Shown here one piece after another: positions 17,352 to 33,045 of a stretch of DNA of 40,803 nucleotides. The notes beneath the pieces were generated by a model. It searched no databases. It had not been told where the DNA came from and saw only the letters and a list, made by a program, of their open reading frames with translations. Every line of letters starts with the position of its first letter. The stretch's first letter is position 1. The stretch lies in NCBI GenBank assembly GCA_021324365.1, contig JAJPJE010000074.1:1-40803 (forward strand). The letters run 5' to 3'. Origin of the DNA: Terriglobia bacterium (GTDB lineage: Bacteria; Acidobacteriota; Terriglobia; Terriglobales; Acidobacteriaceae). Both the position numbers and the translations under genes were made by a program.

Positions 17352-18176
17352 TTACGCGAACATCAACTCTTTCGCACGCTGCGTGGCTTTCACCACAGCT
17401 TTGATCAGCGTTACCCTGAGTTTGCCTTCTTCCAACTCCATGATGCCGTCGATCGTGCACCCTGCCGGCGTGGTCACCGCGTCTTTCAGTAACGCGGGAT
17501 GATCTCCGGTTTCGAGCACCATGCGCGCCGCACCCAGCGTGGTTTGCGCAGCCAAAAGCGTCGCTAGATCGCGCGGTAATCCGACCTTAACGCCGGCCTC
17601 GGCCAGCGATTCGAGGATGATGTAAATGTAAGCCGGCCCGCTCGCTGACAGTGCCGTCACTGCGTCCATGTGCTTTTCGTCAACCACCACAGTTCTACCA
17701 ACAGTCTCGAAGAGACGGCGGGCAACCTCCATTTGTGCTGGCTTCACGGACTGACCGGCGGCGAGCCCGGTGATTCCTGCTCCGAGAATCGAAGGCGTGT
17801 TCGGCATAGCACGGATGACAGGTACGCGTGCAGGGAGTCGCGCTTCGATAAAAGAAGTCGGAACTGACGCGGCAATCGAGATCACCAATTTCTCGGGCGT
17901 CATCTCCTGCTTCACTTCGTCGAGGACTTCACCTACGGTCTGCGGCTTTACGCATACCAGGACCACATCAGCGTGTCGAACCGCTTCGCGGTTGTCGGTA
18001 CCGAGACGTACACCAAGATCGGCGCTGCGTTTCGCCACCTTTTCTGCATGAGAGAGCGTTGCCCAAATCGCATTGGCAGTGGCCAGCTTGTGTTTGAGGA
18101 ATCCCTGCACGAGAATGCCGCCCATCTTGCCCGCGCCCAGCACTGCGAGCTTATGTTTCGCAGATTTATCTGCCAC
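17352..18176 (-). CDS. proC: ProC, pyrroline-5-carboxylate reductase
   Basis: A 274-residue enzyme reducing pyrroline-5-carboxylate to proline with NAD(P)H. The Rossmann motif LAVLGAGKMGG is at the N-terminus. V-L-V-C-V-K-P-Q and V-I-R-A-M-P-N-T-P follow, and the C-terminal signature region has ALSASGPAYIYIILESLAEAGVKVGLPR and DAVTTPAGCTIDGI. I choose the GTG at 18176 because GGCGGAG stands 8 bases upstream; a TTG at 18200 would add 8 residues without a clear site. Confidence 0.94.
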   Translation of the reverse strand: MADKSAKHKLAVLGAGKMGGILVQGFLKHKLATANAIWATLSHAEKVAKRSADLGVRLGTDNREAVRHADVVLVCVKPQTVGEVLDEVKQEMTPEKLVISIAASVPTSFIEARLPARVPVIRAMPNTPSILGAGITGLAAGQSVKPAQMEVARRLFETVGRTVVVDEKHMDAVTALSASGPAYIYIILESLAEAGVKVGLPRDLATLLAAQTTLGAARMVLETGDHPALLKDAVTTPAGCTIDGIMELEEGKLRVTLIKAVVKATQRAKELMFA

Positions 18177-18369
18177 AGAGTGTGCTCCGCCTGATGACAA
18201 GTTTTACAGTAGCCTTCAGTCTACAATTTCGCGACTGAATACGCGAAACACCTCGTTTTCACAACATCGCTAAACTTCGGCGCTGGGTTAAGCGGCGGTC
18301 ACTTGGCGCGTCCATTCGCCGGATACAACCTACGTAGACTCAGCCTGTTTTTCGATTAGCTTATGGCAT

Positions 18370-18396
18370 TTAACAAATGGTTAACCCTTCGTTAAT
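18370..18396 (+). promoter_or_regulatory. Pho-box-like array upstream of the TonB receptor
   Basis: Three units with exact 11-base spacing: TTAAC (18370), TTAAC (18381) and TTAAT (18392). A weak -10-like TAGTCT begins 10 bases after the last unit. The arrangement matches the pattern before pstS in this window and the 11-bp repeat read by PhoB. The receptor start codon is about 85 bases further on. The rest of the 18,201-18,481 gap shows no gene. Confidence 0.55.
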
Positions 18397-18481
18397 ACCG
18401 CAACAATAGTCTCCTCGTCTACTCCAGGCACCGTTTCCGTGTAGAAGCAGCCTAAAAATTACGACAAGGAGAAAGACACCA

Positions 18482-21163
18482 TTGAGGCAAGCTCAAGTTG
18501 TGGTGGGCCTTTTGGCTTTGAGCTGGATGCTTACTGGCACACTCTGTAATGCTCAGAAAGTAGCAGCGATCAGGGGGAAGGTAGTAGACGCCAGCGGCGC
18601 TACGATTTCCGATGCAGCTGTATCTTTAACCGACCTGACGACCAACACAGTACGACACGCGACGAGTGGCGATGACGGGCGGTTTGCATTTAACGACTTG
18701 CATAGCAATCAGCAACTCATCACGATCGAGAAGGCCGGATTTGAGTCTTTCAGTGAACGTATTCCGCCGGCGAAAGAATCCTCTGTGACTGTCAACGCCA
18801 TCTTGAAGGTTGCCACGCTTTACGACAGCGTTGTCGTTCGCGGCACTGTTGCCCCGGACGCAAAGCCTGTGCCCACCCGGGAAGACGTGATGCTGATCCC
18901 ACAGACGGTTCGCGTCCTCGACCGCAAACAATTGGATACGGGCGGGCCGCTCGCCGGAGGGGCGCAGATGATTTCTTCCACGCCCGGAGCTAACGTGGTC
19001 GGTTACGGAGAGACGGGCGCTACAAAATATACGGTTCTTTTGAACGGCATCCAGCAAGGCTGGGCAGGCGAAGCAACCAGTTTCACCGCGCCGGGTTCGC
19101 TGGGAATCACGTTCGATGGCGTCCCAGTAGTCGATGCGGCGACTGGCCTGTGGCAGTCAGCGACAATGCCGCAGAACCTGGTAATGCAAAACCTGGGAGT
19201 CACCTACGGGCCCGGTGATCCGGCCAATCGCTGGTATACCAACATCGGGGGACAGGTGGAGTTCACACCCGTTCAACCGACGGAAAGCGTTCATGCTAGC
19301 GTGGCCCTCACTCAGGGACCTTACGGCCAGCAGAATCTCGCCTTTGTTATGAACACAGGCGCGTTCCACGGGTGGTCCACTGTGCTCGGCGGGGGTCTGG
19401 GGCGAGGTGACGACTTCCGCGTGGCTCCTGATGGCTTTGGCAATCATGCAAAGGATGGCTCGGCATTCGGTAAAACCCTCAAAACATTTTCGGCCGGAAG
19501 CTTCGTATTCGGCGGTTATTACGCAAAAGCAGGCGGCTATCGGCCAACCGTGATTCCCACTACAGATGTGGGCCTTGTTCAACCCGACGGTTCGCACTTC
19601 AGCCAGGACACGAGCGGGTTCTACAGCGCCCTGCCGTTCGACGCATATAACAAGTACGACACGAACGAAATGGCAATGGTTTACGGACGAGAGAATTTCA
19701 ATCTGGGTAGTCTGACGACTTTGCAGAATATGACCTGGTTCACGCACATTCGGCGTCTGCATCGCCGCAACCAGGATCTTCTCAGCCCGGGCGCACAAGT
19801 GGACGAGTACAACAATCCACACAGCAACATCTTTGGAGATCAGATCGGAATGTCGGTAGCGCTTCCGCACAACACGATCGGGTTCGGTGGGTACGCTCTC
19901 CATGAAACCTATAACACTCGTAACAACTTTTACAATCCTCTATATGGCGGAGATGGCGCGCTCGGCCTTATCGGTGCGGGCGGCCGATTCCGCTCTGGTT
20001 ATTTCCAGCATGATGACCTTGCATTTTATGCTCAGGATGATTTCCATCCTATACCGCAGATTCACATTACCCCCGGGGTTCGCGTTGTCGGCTTCTCAAC
20101 CAGCTACAGTGACCAGGCACAACGCGACTTCACGTTTGCGCCTGGCGTGATCTATGCAACTCATTGCGCGCTGTACCCTGCAGGGTCTGACCCGTTCAAC
20201 AATATCCTGGGTACTCCGACAGTAGCTCCAGACGGCAGCACCACGAAGGATCAGGGCTCTCTCTGCGGTGGCCATGAAAACCGTTCGGCCGTAGAACCCT
20301 CGATCAATGTTGGCATAATGCCGTACGAGTGGCTGACGGTTTATGGCGGATACGAGGTAACATATCGCTCTCCCGCGCTCGGCGGTGGCGGTGGAATGTT
20401 CCAAGCCGTGGATCCCGCTTTCTACACTTTGGCGAAAGGTGGTTACGGTCAAGCCGGCGTGAAGGTTCACTTCCGGAACGCTCCTGTACTCAAGGATTTC
20501 ATCGCAGGAGTGAGCTACTTCCACCTGGATTACACCAACCAGGAAATTGACTTCGAAACAGCTCTCGGCTTGCAGATTTCCGGAGGTGGCAACTCCACCT
20601 ACCACGGGGTAAACGTCTTCTTTGACGATGATCCCTTGCAAAATGTTCACTTCTTCCTGAACTTTGCGGGAGAATCGGCGAACTTCACGAACTACGTCGT
20701 CGGAGGTCCTAGCCTGGCTGAATGCTCGGCGCAGGGGCTTTCTTGCACCGCTTACAACAATCTCCCCGTCTCCTATGTCCCCGATGTGACCCTGAACACT
20801 GGAATCTACTACGGGATTGAACACAACCACCGTGTACTTGTGGAACCGCGCTTCTGGGTGGAGCACATCGGTTCGCAACATCTCTGGTCAAATCTGACTG
20901 GCGCCCCTACGACGCAAACGATGCCCTCGTACACGACGGCAAATCTGGCATTTGCGATTCCGCTCAATATCGAAAAACAATCCTTCAACCTGAAGATCGA
21001 CGTGCTGAACCTCTTCAATTCGCAATACAACCAGTGGGAATACATCTCCAGCGGCGGATACTTTGCATCGCTGTTCACTGGACCAAACCCTCCCAGTGGT
21101 TACATCAACGGTTACCCTGGGGCTCCGCGCGCGGTTTATGGCACCATCAGCTATCAATTCTGA
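18482..21163 (+). CDS. TonB-dependent receptor with carboxypeptidase-regulatory-like domain
   Basis: An 893-residue outer-membrane receptor. A signal peptide covers residues 1-24. A carboxypeptidase-regulatory-like domain follows at about 29-110 (IRGKVVDASGATISDAAVSL). Then comes a plug domain (LIPQTVRVLDRK, TKYTVLLNGIQ, about 130-270) and a long beta-barrel ending in the aromatic terminus GTISYQF expected for BAM insertion. The substrate is not readable from sequence. TTG is the start codon, with AAGGAG about 10 bases upstream. The plug resembles siderophore receptors, but the Pho-box-like array in front suggests a phosphate-related ligand. Confidence 0.9.
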   Translation: MRQAQVVVGLLALSWMLTGTLCNAQKVAAIRGKVVDASGATISDAAVSLTDLTTNTVRHATSGDDGRFAFNDLHSNQQLITIEKAGFESFSERIPPAKESSVTVNAILKVATLYDSVVVRGTVAPDAKPVPTREDVMLIPQTVRVLDRKQLDTGGPLAGGAQMISSTPGANVVGYGETGATKYTVLLNGIQQGWAGEATSFTAPGSLGITFDGVPVVDAATGLWQSATMPQNLVMQNLGVTYGPGDPANRWYTNIGGQVEFTPVQPTESVHASVALTQGPYGQQNLAFVMNTGAFHGWSTVLGGGLGRGDDFRVAPDGFGNHAKDGSAFGKTLKTFSAGSFVFGGYYAKAGGYRPTVIPTTDVGLVQPDGSHFSQDTSGFYSALPFDAYNKYDTNEMAMVYGRENFNLGSLTTLQNMTWFTHIRRLHRRNQDLLSPGAQVDEYNNPHSNIFGDQIGMSVALPHNTIGFGGYALHETYNTRNNFYNPLYGGDGALGLIGAGGRFRSGYFQHDDLAFYAQDDFHPIPQIHITPGVRVVGFSTSYSDQAQRDFTFAPGVIYATHCALYPAGSDPFNNILGTPTVAPDGSTTKDQGSLCGGHENRSAVEPSINVGIMPYEWLTVYGGYEVTYRSPALGGGGGMFQAVDPAFYTLAKGGYGQAGVKVHFRNAPVLKDFIAGVSYFHLDYTNQEIDFETALGLQISGGGNSTYHGVNVFFDDDPLQNVHFFLNFAGESANFTNYVVGGPSLAECSAQGLSCTAYNNLPVSYVPDVTLNTGIYYGIEHNHRVLVEPRFWVEHIGSQHLWSNLTGAPTTQTMPSYTTANLAFAIPLNIEKQSFNLKIDVLNLFNSQYNQWEYISSGGYFASLFTGPNPPSGYINGYPGAPRAVYGTISYQF

Positions 21164-28342: not shown

Positions 28343-29353
28343 TTATCGGATCTGCTGAATAACAGAACGCTCACGCTGAGCGATTTCCTTCGGAAGCGGT
28401 GCGTAATCGAGAGAAGTCACCATGCCCTGTCCGCTGTCGAGCATCCAGTTCAGAAAGCCGATCATGGCGCCTTTCTTTGTACTATCCTTCCATTGTTTGG
28501 GAATCAGCAAATACGTGAAGCTGGCGATCGGATAAGCCTCTCTTCCGGCAGCGTTGGTAATCGAAACCCGGAAGTCATCTCCCGTGATCTTCGCCGAAGA
28601 TGCCGCCGCGGTAGTTGAATCCAGGCTTGCCTTCACGAAGTTACCGGCTGCGTTTCTCACCGGGCCAAAGGTGATCTTGTTTTGCAGTGCGTAAATCAAC
28701 TCAACGTAGCCGAGGCTGCCGTCCATCTGCCGCACCAGTCCAGCCACACCCTCGTTACCCTTACCGCCCAACCCTACGGGCCACTTTACCGAGGTATTGG
28801 CACCGACCTGTGACTGCCATTCCGGACTGATCTTGGAGAGGTAGTCGGTCCAAACGAAGGTCGTGCCGCTGCCATCCGAGCGATGCACTACTATGATGGA
28901 TCTATCGGGCAGCTTCATGCCGGGGTTGGCGGCAGCGATGGCCTTATCGTTCCATTTTGTGATTTTTCCAAGGTAGATACCGGACAGGATCTCCGGTGTG
29001 AATTTAATCTCACCCGACACGCCGGAAACGTTGTAGGCGGGTACCACTGATCCAAGAACCGTTGGAAGTTGGAAGATTGGCTGCGGGATCTGTTTTGCCT
29101 GCTGATCGTTCAGCGGCATGTCGCTGGCGCCGAAATCGACGGTGCCTGCGGCCAACTGCCGGATTCCGCCGCCGCTCCCGATTGACTGGTAGTTGATCTC
29201 CACATCGGAATGGGCGTTGTGATACTCGCTAAACCACTTTGAATACATCGGATACGGAAAGGTCGCACCCGCCCCGTTCAACCTTGTCTGAGCAAACGAT
29301 AGTCCAACCAGGAACAATATGCAGAATAGAACCAGAGTGACGCGTTTCAACAT
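28343..29353 (-). CDS. pstS: PstS, phosphate-binding periplasmic protein
   Basis: A 336-residue phosphate-binding protein. A signal peptide (MLKRVTLVLFCILFLVGLSFAQ) is followed by RLNGAGATFPYPMYSKWF, YQSIGSGGGIRQLAAGTVDFGASDMPL (phosphate loop region), then HRSDGSGTTFVWTDYLS, all hallmarks of PstS. It delivers phosphate to PstCA. The ATG at 29353 is preferred because AGGAGG stands 4 bases before it; the preceding ATG at 29356 is only 1 base away. It follows the Pho-box-like array. Confidence 0.96.
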   Translation of the reverse strand: MLKRVTLVLFCILFLVGLSFAQTRLNGAGATFPYPMYSKWFSEYHNAHSDVEINYQSIGSGGGIRQLAAGTVDFGASDMPLNDQQAKQIPQPIFQLPTVLGSVVPAYNVSGVSGEIKFTPEILSGIYLGKITKWNDKAIAAANPGMKLPDRSIIVVHRSDGSGTTFVWTDYLSKISPEWQSQVGANTSVKWPVGLGGKGNEGVAGLVRQMDGSLGYVELIYALQNKITFGPVRNAAGNFVKASLDSTTAAASSAKITGDDFRVSITNAAGREAYPIASFTYLLIPKQWKDSTKKGAMIGFLNWMLDSGQGMVTSLDYAPLPKEIAQRERSVIQQIR

Positions 29354-29393
29354 CATGCCTCCTGAAGGTGAAGGCAAATTTTTATTGAATCAT

Positions 29394-29431
29394 GTTAATG
29401 AGCGGTTACAGACCGTTGAATATTGAGTGAA
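29394..29431 (-). promoter_or_regulatory. Pho-box-like array before pstS
   Basis: On the minus strand four units are spaced exactly 11 bases apart: TTCAC (29431-29427), TTCAA (29420-29416), GTAAC (29409-29405) and TTAAC (29398-29394). A TAAAAA, as -10, begins 9 bases after the last unit. The array lies 41 bases before the pstS ATG and has the same orientation as the gene. Confidence 0.75.
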
Positions 29432-30394: not shown

Positions 30395-32152
30395 TTAACT
30401 TGTCGCCTTCTCTACCTCCTCGACCAGAGCTCCCTTCGTCGCGAGGGGCAGCCGGAACGAGAATTCCGATCCATAACCCAACAGACTCTCCGCCCGCACA
30501 CTGCCTCCATGTACGCGGATGATGTGTTTTACAATCGCCAGCCCCAATCCCGTTCCACCAGATTCCCGCGAACGTGCCTTGTCCACCCGGTAGAAGCGCT
30601 CGAACAGCCGCGGCAGATGTTCCGACGGGATGCCCTGCCCGTTATCGCGGACATAGAACTCCAGTGTGGAATCGACCGTTCGAACGCCCAAAAACACCTG
30701 GGCTCCCGCAGACGAATACTTGATCGCGTTGTCGATCAGGTTGGCAAACACCTGCTGGATCGCGTCCTCGTCGGCCTGAACTAACTGCTCCGAATTGCTC
30801 TCGATCGTCATCTCCACGTCGCGAGCTCGGGCTACTTCTGCAAATGTCTCGTACGCGTTTTGAAGCAATGTGCTGGCCGCAACCGGATGAAAGCGGAAAT
30901 TCTGCTCCCCCGACTCCACTCGTGCCAGCGTGAGCAGGTCTTCCGTCAGCCGCGACATTCGTGCCGCATTTTTTCGAATGATTTCCAGAAACTCATGAGT
31001 CATCGACGAATCACCCGGCGGCGCATCCAGCAACGTTTCCGTGTATCCCTGGATCGATGTCAGGGGCGTGCGCAGTTCGTGCGAAACATTGGCAATAAAA
31101 TCCCGACGCGTCTTTTCCAGGCGCTCGACCTCTGAAAGGTCGTATAGCACTGCGACGGCTCCCCCATTCGGCATCGGGGCCGCAGTTACGCTGAACGCCC
31201 GCCGCACCGCGCTCCAGTTCACCCGGGTGGTCTGGACTTGCTTATCTTTCGCCGCGAGCTCAATGGCACGAAGAAAATCAGGATCGCGCACGGTTTCAAC
31301 GATGGGCGCATTCAACCGCACTCCCGGAGGCGCCAACTCGTTCATCTTGCGATTGGCCCAAAGCGCCCGCCCATCGCCGGAGATCGCAATCACCGCCTCC
31401 TGCATACTGTTGAGCACTGCTTCCAGTTCTTCATGACTTGTCTCGATAGCCTCAAAGCTTTCTTCTAATCGCCGAGCAGTTTTGTCGAGTGCGGTGGCAA
31501 CCGCAGCAATCTCATCGGAAGAGCGCCGTTCGTCGATGCGCGCCGTAAGATCACCCTGCGCGACCCGATGCGCAAAACCAACAATTGCCTTCAGCCTCCG
31601 GCTAATCCCCTGTGCGGCGATTCCCGCCAGCACCGTTGCCACAGCCATTGCCAGGAGCGTCGCCCAGAAGAGATTTCCCCAGACACGCTTTCGAACCGCG
31701 GCGATCGAACCGAGCGGATATGCCAATCGCACTGCGCCTCCCGGGATCGGCGCTGCCACGTATAGGAACTGGATGCCAAGCGTGTGACTCCAGCGCGAAT
31801 CCTCGCCAATCTCGCCTCGTAATGCCTTAATGAACTCAGGGCGCGTGGCATGATTTTCCATCTCCGTCGGGTCGGCACTCGAGTCCGCGAGGACATGCCC
31901 CTGCTGGTCGATAATCGTCGCACGTGCGTCTGAAGCCTCGCCCGCTTCTCTGGCAATTGCCACGTAGTCAGGATGGGCATCGCCGCGAACGCGGTTCGCC
32001 AGCATCAGCGTTTCGCGCCGCAAAGAACCTTCCGTGCTTTGATAAAGGGAGCGCTCCCAGGATTTACGGATAGCAAGGTCGAGAGTGAGGGTGGCTGCTG
32101 CGATAACGATGAGGAAGAAAGCCAGCAGCTTGAAGAATATCTGCGTCTTCAC
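30395..32152 (-). CDS. phoR: PhoR, phosphate-responsive sensor histidine kinase
   Basis: A 585-residue kinase. Transmembrane helix 1 is at about 8-28, an extracytoplasmic domain runs to about 157, and TM2 is at about 160-180. HAMP follows (186-232), then a PAS-like domain (about 243-345). The HisKA H-box has H358 in FIANVSHELRTPLTS. The catalytic domain has N-box NLIDNAIKYSS, DNGQGIP and GGTGLGLAIVKHI. The large periplasmic domain is unlike E. coli PhoR, which has none. It overlaps phoB by four bases (ATGA). Confidence 0.88.
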   Translation of the reverse strand: MKTQIFFKLLAFFLIVIAAATLTLDLAIRKSWERSLYQSTEGSLRRETLMLANRVRGDAHPDYVAIAREAGEASDARATIIDQQGHVLADSSADPTEMENHATRPEFIKALRGEIGEDSRWSHTLGIQFLYVAAPIPGGAVRLAYPLGSIAAVRKRVWGNLFWATLLAMAVATVLAGIAAQGISRRLKAIVGFAHRVAQGDLTARIDERRSSDEIAAVATALDKTARRLEESFEAIETSHEELEAVLNSMQEAVIAISGDGRALWANRKMNELAPPGVRLNAPIVETVRDPDFLRAIELAAKDKQVQTTRVNWSAVRRAFSVTAAPMPNGGAVAVLYDLSEVERLEKTRRDFIANVSHELRTPLTSIQGYTETLLDAPPGDSSMTHEFLEIIRKNAARMSRLTEDLLTLARVESGEQNFRFHPVAASTLLQNAYETFAEVARARDVEMTIESNSEQLVQADEDAIQQVFANLIDNAIKYSSAGAQVFLGVRTVDSTLEFYVRDNGQGIPSEHLPRLFERFYRVDKARSRESGGTGLGLAIVKHIIRVHGGSVRAESLLGYGSEFSFRLPLATKGALVEEVEKATS

Positions 32153-32832
32153 CGCGGCGCCTCGAACCGATACCCTGCCCCCCGAACCGTTTTAAGCATA
32201 CGCGGAGTGTCCGGCTCGCGTTCAATTTTCTCGCGAATACGGCGAACGTACACGTCCACGGATCGAGGCGTCACAAATTGAGTATCCCGCCAAACCGCAT
32301 CGAGCAACTGATCGCGTGTGAACACTCGTCCCGGGTGCCGCGCCAGGTAATCCAGCAGCCGGAACTCGGTCGCGGTCGTCGGAACCTTTTTCCCTCGGAC
32401 CGTCAGCGTCATCGCGCCGGTATCCACTTCAATATCGCCGGCCTTCAATAACGAAGGAACAAGCGGGCGCTCGAACCTGCGCAGTACAGCTTTCACTCGC
32501 GCCACCAGTTCTCGCGGGCTGAACGGCTTGCTGATGTAATCGTCGGCCCCGAGTTCCAGACCAACAACCCGGTCCGCCTCGGAAGTGCGTGCCGTGAGAA
32601 AAATCACCGGTACGACGGCAAGGGATTGGCTTTGCCTAACCCGACGGCACAACTCCAGACCGTCCCCTCCGGGGATCATGATGTCCAGCAGGAACAACGT
32701 CGGCGTATTCTTTTCCGCTTCGCTGATAACACCTGCCACACTCGAAAACGAGCGCACGTTAAAGCCGGCTCCTTCCAGGTGATGGCGCACCAGGCGCGCG
32801 ATGTCCAGATCATCTTCAACCAGATAGATCAT
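32149..32832 (-). CDS. phoB: PhoB, OmpR-type response regulator
   Basis: A 227-residue response regulator. The receiver has the acidic pair in VEDD, phosphoacceptor Asp in FLLDIMIPGGDG, the Thr in FLTA and the Lys of ISKPFSPRELVARV. The winged-helix DNA-binding domain covers the C-terminal 100 residues (TEFRLLDYLARHPGRVFTRDQLLDAVW, SVDVYVRRIREKIE). With PhoR and the pst genes beside it, this is PhoB. The start is uncertain: the ATG at 32832 or a TTG at 32841. Confidence 0.9.
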   Translation of the reverse strand: MIYLVEDDLDIARLVRHHLEGAGFNVRSFSSVAGVISEAEKNTPTLFLLDIMIPGGDGLELCRRVRQSQSLAVVPVIFLTARTSEADRVVGLELGADDYISKPFSPRELVARVKAVLRRFERPLVPSLLKAGDIEVDTGAMTLTVRGKKVPTTATEFRLLDYLARHPGRVFTRDQLLDAVWRDTQFVTPRSVDVYVRRIREKIEREPDTPRMLKTVRGAGYRFEAPR

Positions 32833-32986
32833 CTCCAGCAAAGATTACCGCAGGTCTCCTCAATGCGCTATGACTTCGCGCGCGCAATCCCCCGGCCGCG
32901 CGGCGCCCGTGTTATCAAACGGCGCGTAAACACTGCAGATTTGCATTCGCCCGCCTTTACCGGTACCCTGTTTCGCGCTCACCGTT

Positions 32987-33035
32987 TTCACCGTCTGTTC
33001 ACGAAATTGTAACCGGGTATTCACACTTGCTTCAC
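32987..33035 (+). promoter_or_regulatory. Five-unit Pho-box-like array between phoB and the S9 peptidase
   Basis: Five units at exact 11-base intervals: TTCAC at 32987, TTCAC at 32998, GTAAC at 33009, TTCAC at 33020 and TTCAC at 33031. This is the longest such array in the window. Units read on the plus strand, toward the peptidase, yet the array ends only 11 bases before its ATG. It could also autoregulate phoB on the other side (start about 155 bases away). I cannot tell which. Confidence 0.7.
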
Positions 33036-33045
33036 GGGGATTGCC

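Follow-up and report, generated by a model that had tools for sequence, protein, structure and literature searches.

Acid soils poor in phosphate are rich in Acidobacteria, whose genomes encode many TonB receptors of unknown ligand. In the stretch of 40,803 nucleotides analysed here (hereafter the window), the gene of one such receptor is preceded by a short array of direct repeats resembling a binding site for the phosphate regulator PhoB. Is the receptor controlled by phosphate starvation, and does it import a ligand that bears phosphate? A sequence-only reading of the window had described three TTAAC/TTAAT units at exact 11-base spacing before the receptor, about 11 kb from the pst operon. 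The distance, measured to pstS, is correct, and the units are read directly at 18370-18396 on the + strand, where the cores TTAAC, TTAAC and TTAAT, separated by AAATGG and CCTTCG, follow each other in exact 11-base steps. The features of the region are as follows.

17352..18200, - strand: proC-like gene, on the other side of the array and reading away from it
18370..18402, + strand: predicted PhoB-type box, three 11-bp units TTAACAAATGG / TTAACCCTTCG / TTAATACCGCA; 23.5 bits with a matrix trained on pstS
18407..18412, + strand: candidate -10 element TAGTCT, spaced 10 bp from the last core as at pstS promoters; suggestive
18482..21163, + strand: TonB-dependent receptor, 893 aa, with an N-terminal carboxypeptidase-regulatory-like domain (PF13620) and a beta-barrel (PF00593), over cut-off

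The last core is separated by 85 bases from the start codon of the receptor. Direct repeats, a period of 11 bp and a location upstream of the receptor gene are traits of a Pho box, and the array at 18370-18402 is in all likelihood a PhoB binding site.

Short A+T-rich words are common in promoters, and a chance similarity in an A+T-rich gap had to be considered. The pattern TTAAY-N6-TTAAY-N6-TTAAY has one match without mismatches in the window; in 100 dinucleotide shuffles it was never found, even with one mismatch. In the genome (4,444,665 bases) the receptor site is the sole match free of mismatches, and up to one mismatch gives 5 matches versus 2 for a control pattern. The empty shuffles, the lack of comparable sites before neighbouring genes and the one-strand conservation before orthologues, both described below, leave practically no room for chance.

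The Pho box of the group

The Pho genes of the window are all on the - strand between 27.2 and 32.8 kb, in the order PF00528 permease, pstS, PhoU-like protein, PhoR-like kinase and PhoB-like regulator. Three ORFs on the same strand at 24.9-27.2 kb, outside the domain scan, are found where pstA, pstB and another phoU are expected.

28343..29377, - strand: pstS, phosphate-binding protein (TIGR00975, 384.8 bits, cut-off 205)
29388..29431, - strand: four-unit array before pstS, TTCAC-TTCAA-GTAAC-TTAAC from 29431 down to 29388; best three units 21.1 bits
29518..30300, - strand: PhoU-like protein (PF01895, 76.6 bits)
30395..32152, - strand: PhoR-like histidine kinase (NCBIfam PnpS 362.6, cut-off 400, and PhoR 313.9, cut-off 334.2; both below)
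32149..32841, - strand: PhoB-like response regulator (PF00072 and PF00486), presumed binder of the arrays
32987..33041, + strand: five-unit array (TTCAC, TTCAC, GTAAC, TTCAC, TTCAC) in the gap between phoB (-) and an S9 peptidase gene (+)

A matrix of three tandem units, each of 11 columns, was trained on pstS upstream sequences, at most 300 bases long, from 29 further genomes of the family. The training loci (L040-L068) are the 29 best pstS matches after the window's own, and the window genome was left out. All 29 pstS upstream regions feature an array (21.7-32.5 bits; best of 870 shuffles, 11.1), commonly in the form TTCAY-N6-TTCAC-N6-GTAAC-N6-GTAAC, followed 10 bases on by TAnAAn. With this matrix, learnt from pstS alone, the highest score in the window falls on the receptor site (23.5 bits), ahead of pstS (21.1) and of the phoB/S9 peptidase interval (20.3). 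The receptor array is thus of the pst type. The earlier claim that both arrays have the same form is true of the 11-base period and of the degenerate core, which is much alike; the letters differ.

The spacer columns of the matrix lean to C and T, and the A/T-rich 4-bp spacer of the E. coli box is absent. Because the pstS arrays have them too, spacers that are not A/T-rich are the group's own form of the box. At pstS promoters (n=30) the mean score for a -10 element is 1.41 at a gap of 10, the next best being -2.89. Before the receptors (n=37), a general -10 matrix scores highest at gaps of 21 (-1.96) and 10 (-2.58), and a -10 matrix derived from pstS does not single out gap 10. A -10 element 10 bp after the box is therefore clear for pstS, and only suggestive for the receptors.

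The five-unit array at 32987-33041 faces the S9 peptidase gene, but the ATG of that gene (33046) follows after only 4 bases, too few to accommodate a promoter. The array may act in reverse on the divergent phoB or repress the peptidase gene, or the peptidase start may be misassigned.

Occurrence of the motif in the genome

The window belongs to a genome of 4.44 Mb in 125 contigs, 95% complete. The degenerate pattern KTMAY-N6-KTMAY-N6-KTMAY has 13 matches in it, versus 1 for the reversed control, and these fall in nine distinct places. Five of the eight places other than the receptor adjoin phoB, a second pstS (pstS2), a DUF47-PiT pair, a PF04185 phosphoesterase and a calcineurin-like phosphoesterase. 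Scores at the places outside the window are listed below.

Contig 104, L076:1501-1544, + strand: motif in the gap between pstS2 and a divergent ORF, four units, on the strand of the ORF; best three 22.0 bits
PF04185 phosphoesterase: motif, 17.2 bits
Calcineurin-like phosphoesterase: motif, 14.4 bits
Contig 42, L072:766-1473, - strand: 235-aa protein without Pfam match; motif 27 bases before its start, 14.3 bits
DUF47 and PiT phosphate transporter: motif, 11.0 bits
Hemerythrin-like protein and multihaem cytochrome: weak motifs, 4.7 and 2.7 bits

At both phoB and pstS2 the array reads in the direction of the gene across the gap (S9 peptidase and 464-aa ORF, respectively), and the phosphate gene is adjacent to the array, not behind it. 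The ORF next to pstS2, toward which the array points, measures at least 464 aa, being cut by the end of the locus, and has no Pfam match. The 235-aa protein is a candidate member of the Pho regulon. At E <= 1e-5 the receptor has four further matches among the proteins of the genome; all are confined to the N-terminal part, and none of these four is preceded by an array within 600 bases (1.8, -10.7, -5.3 and -4.7 bits).

Other regulators of the OmpR type bind repeats of similar period. The best NCBIfam match of the PhoB-like protein is TIGR02154 PhoB, whose 244 bits fall under the cut-off of 296.2, and this would fit with the array being bound by some OmpR-family regulator with an 11-bp direct-repeat site, and not by PhoB. 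Such a reading is improbable, however, as the motif was learnt from pstS in 29/29 genomes, and five of the eight other places adjoin phosphate-related genes. A PhoB site is the preferred interpretation of the array.

Conservation of the array before receptor orthologues

Sequences upstream of 59 receptor genes were scored with the pstS matrix: the window, 29 of 33 loci from named genomes (four have no upstream DNA) and 29 further loci. Removal of 8 duplicates leaves 51 distinct regions. Within 400 bases, on the strand of the gene, 26 of these score above 10 bits and 29 above 8; shuffles of the 59 regions do so in 8 and 18 of 3540 cases, respectively. Among the upstream regions of the other ORFs (mechanically called, at least 150 aa) in the receptor loci from named genomes, 0 of 115 exceed 8 bits, the best reaching 7.0. 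Nine of the same 115 exceed 8 bits on the reverse strand, and each hit is the site of the adjacent receptor, facing the receptor.

These data also bear on the direction of the site. GTTAAC is its own reverse complement, hence the receptor site scores on the - strand too (15.2 bits, versus 23.5 on the + strand), and it is the orthologues, not the window alone, that settle the direction. The location of the site between two genes, along with the 15.2 bits of its GTTAAC centre on the - strand, would be compatible with an array serving the divergent proC-like gene. On the opposite strand, however, just one of the 51 upstream regions exceeds 8 bits, namely the window with its palindromic centre. 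Flanking genes vary among orthologues and the array is kept: the gene on the other side is MutL-like in L007 and an MFS-type transporter in L010 (by eye), and the array still faces the receptor. Control of the proC-like gene is accordingly very improbable, and the array is assigned to the receptor.

The coupling of array and receptor is common, not universal. Within 400 bases 25 of the 51 regions do not exceed 10 bits, including those of the fairly close orthologues L014 (66% identical) and L019 (65%); at least one of the 25, L010, has its array further upstream. With the L037 orthologue as query, 22 of 299 genomes of the class gave a match. In families other than that of the window, five of ten receptor rows score above 10 bits (18.1, 21.4, 14.8, 15.9 and 16.3). 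These belong to families f5 and f7, and are 46-47% identical to L037, except one at 34%. Three rows score 9.7, 8.1 and 7.6, and two that repeat already scored loci, judging from the printed stretch, score 4.3 and -1.6. The array recurs, therefore, in two further families of the class. Of 52 receptors placed in a FastTree tree, 35 are positive (scoring above 10 bits in the roughly 500 to 600 bases searched). Positives occur in the clade of the window, its sister clade and outer rows alike, with a minimum of 15 state changes. We read this as an old site subjected to repeated loss or decay; state-change counts alone do not separate gain from loss. The scan of related genomes for the same array before orthologous receptors, which had been suggested as a check on the Pho-box idea, thus turned out in its favour by all these counts. 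Judging from the site and its conservation, the receptor is very probably a member of the Pho regulon, and its induction in low phosphate is highly likely.

The receptor protein and its neighbourhood

The barrel domain PF00593 is found in the protein at 56.3 bits (cut-off 27). The plug domain PF07715 gave no match at E <= 0.001; fold alignments with solved receptors span 762-903 columns, gaps included. Solved structures searched by sequence provided no useful match. A structural model, built on 26 aligned sequences (mean pLDDT 58, pTM 0.62), features by our own reading of the strands an N-terminal sandwich, a plug region and a barrel. Its best fold match is PqqU (9c4o, E 8.8e-26), and the best 50 are all TonB-type receptors by title, with E values of 6.3e-22 or lower and TM-scores by query length of 0.51-0.58. 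By barrel domain and fold, the 893-aa protein is a TonB-dependent receptor.

The 33 relatives of the receptor in named genomes are all titled as Acidobacteria, Acidobacteriota or members thereof (Acidobacteriaceae, Granulicella, Bryobacterales). In 27/27 aligned receptors, residues 634-641 read as five glycines, one free residue and FQ, a possible signature of the family. One relative (L133; 31% identity over 86%) is encoded by the mobilizable plasmid pACRY05 of the alphaproteobacterium Acidiphilium cryptum, beside a MotA/TolQ/ExbB gene. It lacks an array by the pstS-trained matrix, and may hint at transfer between phyla.

The three flanking ORFs of the window scanned by Pfam are the proC-like gene, an M50 peptidase and one without match; neither SusD nor phosphatases are among them. 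Some orthologues share neighbours, among them adenosine deaminase, phosphoglucose isomerase and a MutL-like gene. They were set aside as a guide to the ligand, and are read as local synteny. In L114, a neighbour that had looked by eye like a phosphatase proved to be an alpha-L-fucosidase.

Nature of the ligand

The cargo is read as phosphate-bearing because the regulation of the receptor is of the Pho type. On these grounds we infer, with some reserve, that the ligand probably carries phosphate. Two orthologues lend this slight independent support: immediately downstream of the distant L037 is a gene for an AppA-like phytase (over cut-off with PF00328, below it with the NCBIfam model), and in L120 a PF04185 phosphoesterase is encoded by the second gene downstream. 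Most orthologues have neighbours other than phosphate genes.

The L037 phytase raised the idea that phytate is the general ligand. This was discarded: the genome of the window has no phytase of the PF00328 family, and in 200 genomes the receptor, found in 31, and PF00328 proteins, found in 30, occur together in 4, versus 4.65 expected by chance (counted by hand, equal handles being taken as the same genomes). A different association emerged from the phytase-type histidine-acid-phosphatase loci of other genomes in the family. In 11 of 30 the ORF right upstream resembles, by eye, a TonB receptor; these ORFs (L187-L197) encode 760-1061 aa and precede the phytase, and 10 of the 11 are weakly similar to the window receptor N-terminally. 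No Pho box was found before them, the best forward scores, 5.7 and 2.3, both falling within genes; for L195 and L197, the sequence covered ahead of the ORF is shorter than 190 bases. These receptor-like genes located before phytases are another kind, devoid of the Pho box.

A receptor might also belong to the Pho regulon and yet take up a ligand free of phosphate, such as a chelate of iron or another metal, a cofactor like PQQ, or a sugar aiding phosphate-stressed cells. The top fold matches are PqqU/YncD and siderophore receptors, though TonB-dependent receptors match generally; no phosphatase is conserved beside the receptor gene, and the Acidiphilium relative adjoins a MotA/TolQ/ExbB gene, not a phosphatase. 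Against this, the phytase and the PF04185 phosphoesterase are near two orthologues, and TonB receptors of low-phosphate cells are taken for importers of phosphate compounds by the authors working on Caulobacter (PMC11208175) and Flavobacterium (PMC8115612). A phosphate-free ligand is rather unlikely, and a phosphate-bearing one is the reading retained.

Comparison with known systems

Various TonB receptors of Caulobacter crescentus are in the PhoB regulon, and are proposed importers of alternative phosphate donors (PMC11208175). The likeness to the present case lies in the PhoB-type control of TonB receptors; Caulobacter is of another phylum, and control is here predicted from the DNA site. 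A Caulobacter TonB receptor present in stalk extracts in low phosphate is, yet, constitutively expressed (PMC2996285). In Flavobacterium, phosphate depletion induces TonB transporters and PusCD complexes, and one induced transporter is co-localised with a phytase (Fjoh_1368) (PMC8115612). These transporters carry the same kind of N-terminal domain (PF13715 is listed, and one orphan has PF13620) as the window receptor, which has PF13620. Pus genes cluster with phosphatases or SusD, whereas neither is found among the three flanking ORFs scanned in the window; moreover, plant-associated Bacteroidetes are described as lacking PstSABC (PMC8115612), in contrast to the window genome, which hosts pstS. 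A further study deals with TonB receptors and reports a pho-pst gene set in Gemmatimonadetes (PMC10875860).

The PhoB box of E. coli and Pseudomonas measures 22 bp, and is formed by two direct repeats of 7 bp, each followed by a 4-bp A/T-rich part; in E. coli promoters it replaces the -35 element (PMC4971064). The arrays described here share with it the 11-bp period, the direct repeats and the orientation toward the gene, and the pstS box is located 10 bp ahead of the -10. They differ in the core, K-T-M-A-Y (TTCAC, GTAAC, TTAAC), and in the number of recognisable units, three to five as opposed to two with an A/T-rich spacer.

The sequence-only reading had held that the uptake route matches no described system in the group. 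This is right for Acidobacteria: among the matches listed in a literature search, limited to titles and beginnings of abstracts of open-licence papers and thus weak evidence, none dealt with an Acidobacteria Pho box or a phosphate-regulated TonB receptor. It does not extend further, given the Caulobacter (PMC11208175) and Flavobacterium (PMC8115612) systems. TonB receptors controlled by PhoB or induced by low phosphate are thus already known in other phyla, and what appears to be new is an Acidobacteria receptor with a conserved, putative Pho-type array.

A model for phosphate scavenging

The data can be assembled in a model to which we assign, as a whole, a probability of about two in three. 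It comprises a Pho box, expression of the receptor driven by PhoB, and import of a phosphate-bearing ligand; binding of PhoB, induction in low phosphate and the ligand are inferred steps. Low phosphate would be sensed by the Pst, PhoU and PhoR proteins encoded about 11 kb away, resulting in the activation of PhoB. Once bound to the 11-bp repeats, which would substitute for a -35 element, PhoB would recruit RNA polymerase to the candidate -10 near 18407-18412, and transcription would proceed toward the receptor. The TonB-dependent beta-barrel would then bring its ligand, an ester of organic phosphate or some complex that contains phosphate, into the periplasm; there, phosphoesterases belonging to the regulon may free phosphate for the Pst transporter.

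More tentatively, the receptors might form an ancient, class-wide Acidobacteria family of transporters devoted to phosphate scavenging, tied to Pho control before the families of the class split, with a ligand new among Pho-regulated receptors, for example a metal- or humus-bound phosphate ester. The Pho box of the group, found upstream of pstS in all 29 genomes, offers a means of mapping the group's Pho regulon. A conserved switch that would tie the receptor to phosphate starvation provides it with a physiological role that is readily testable.
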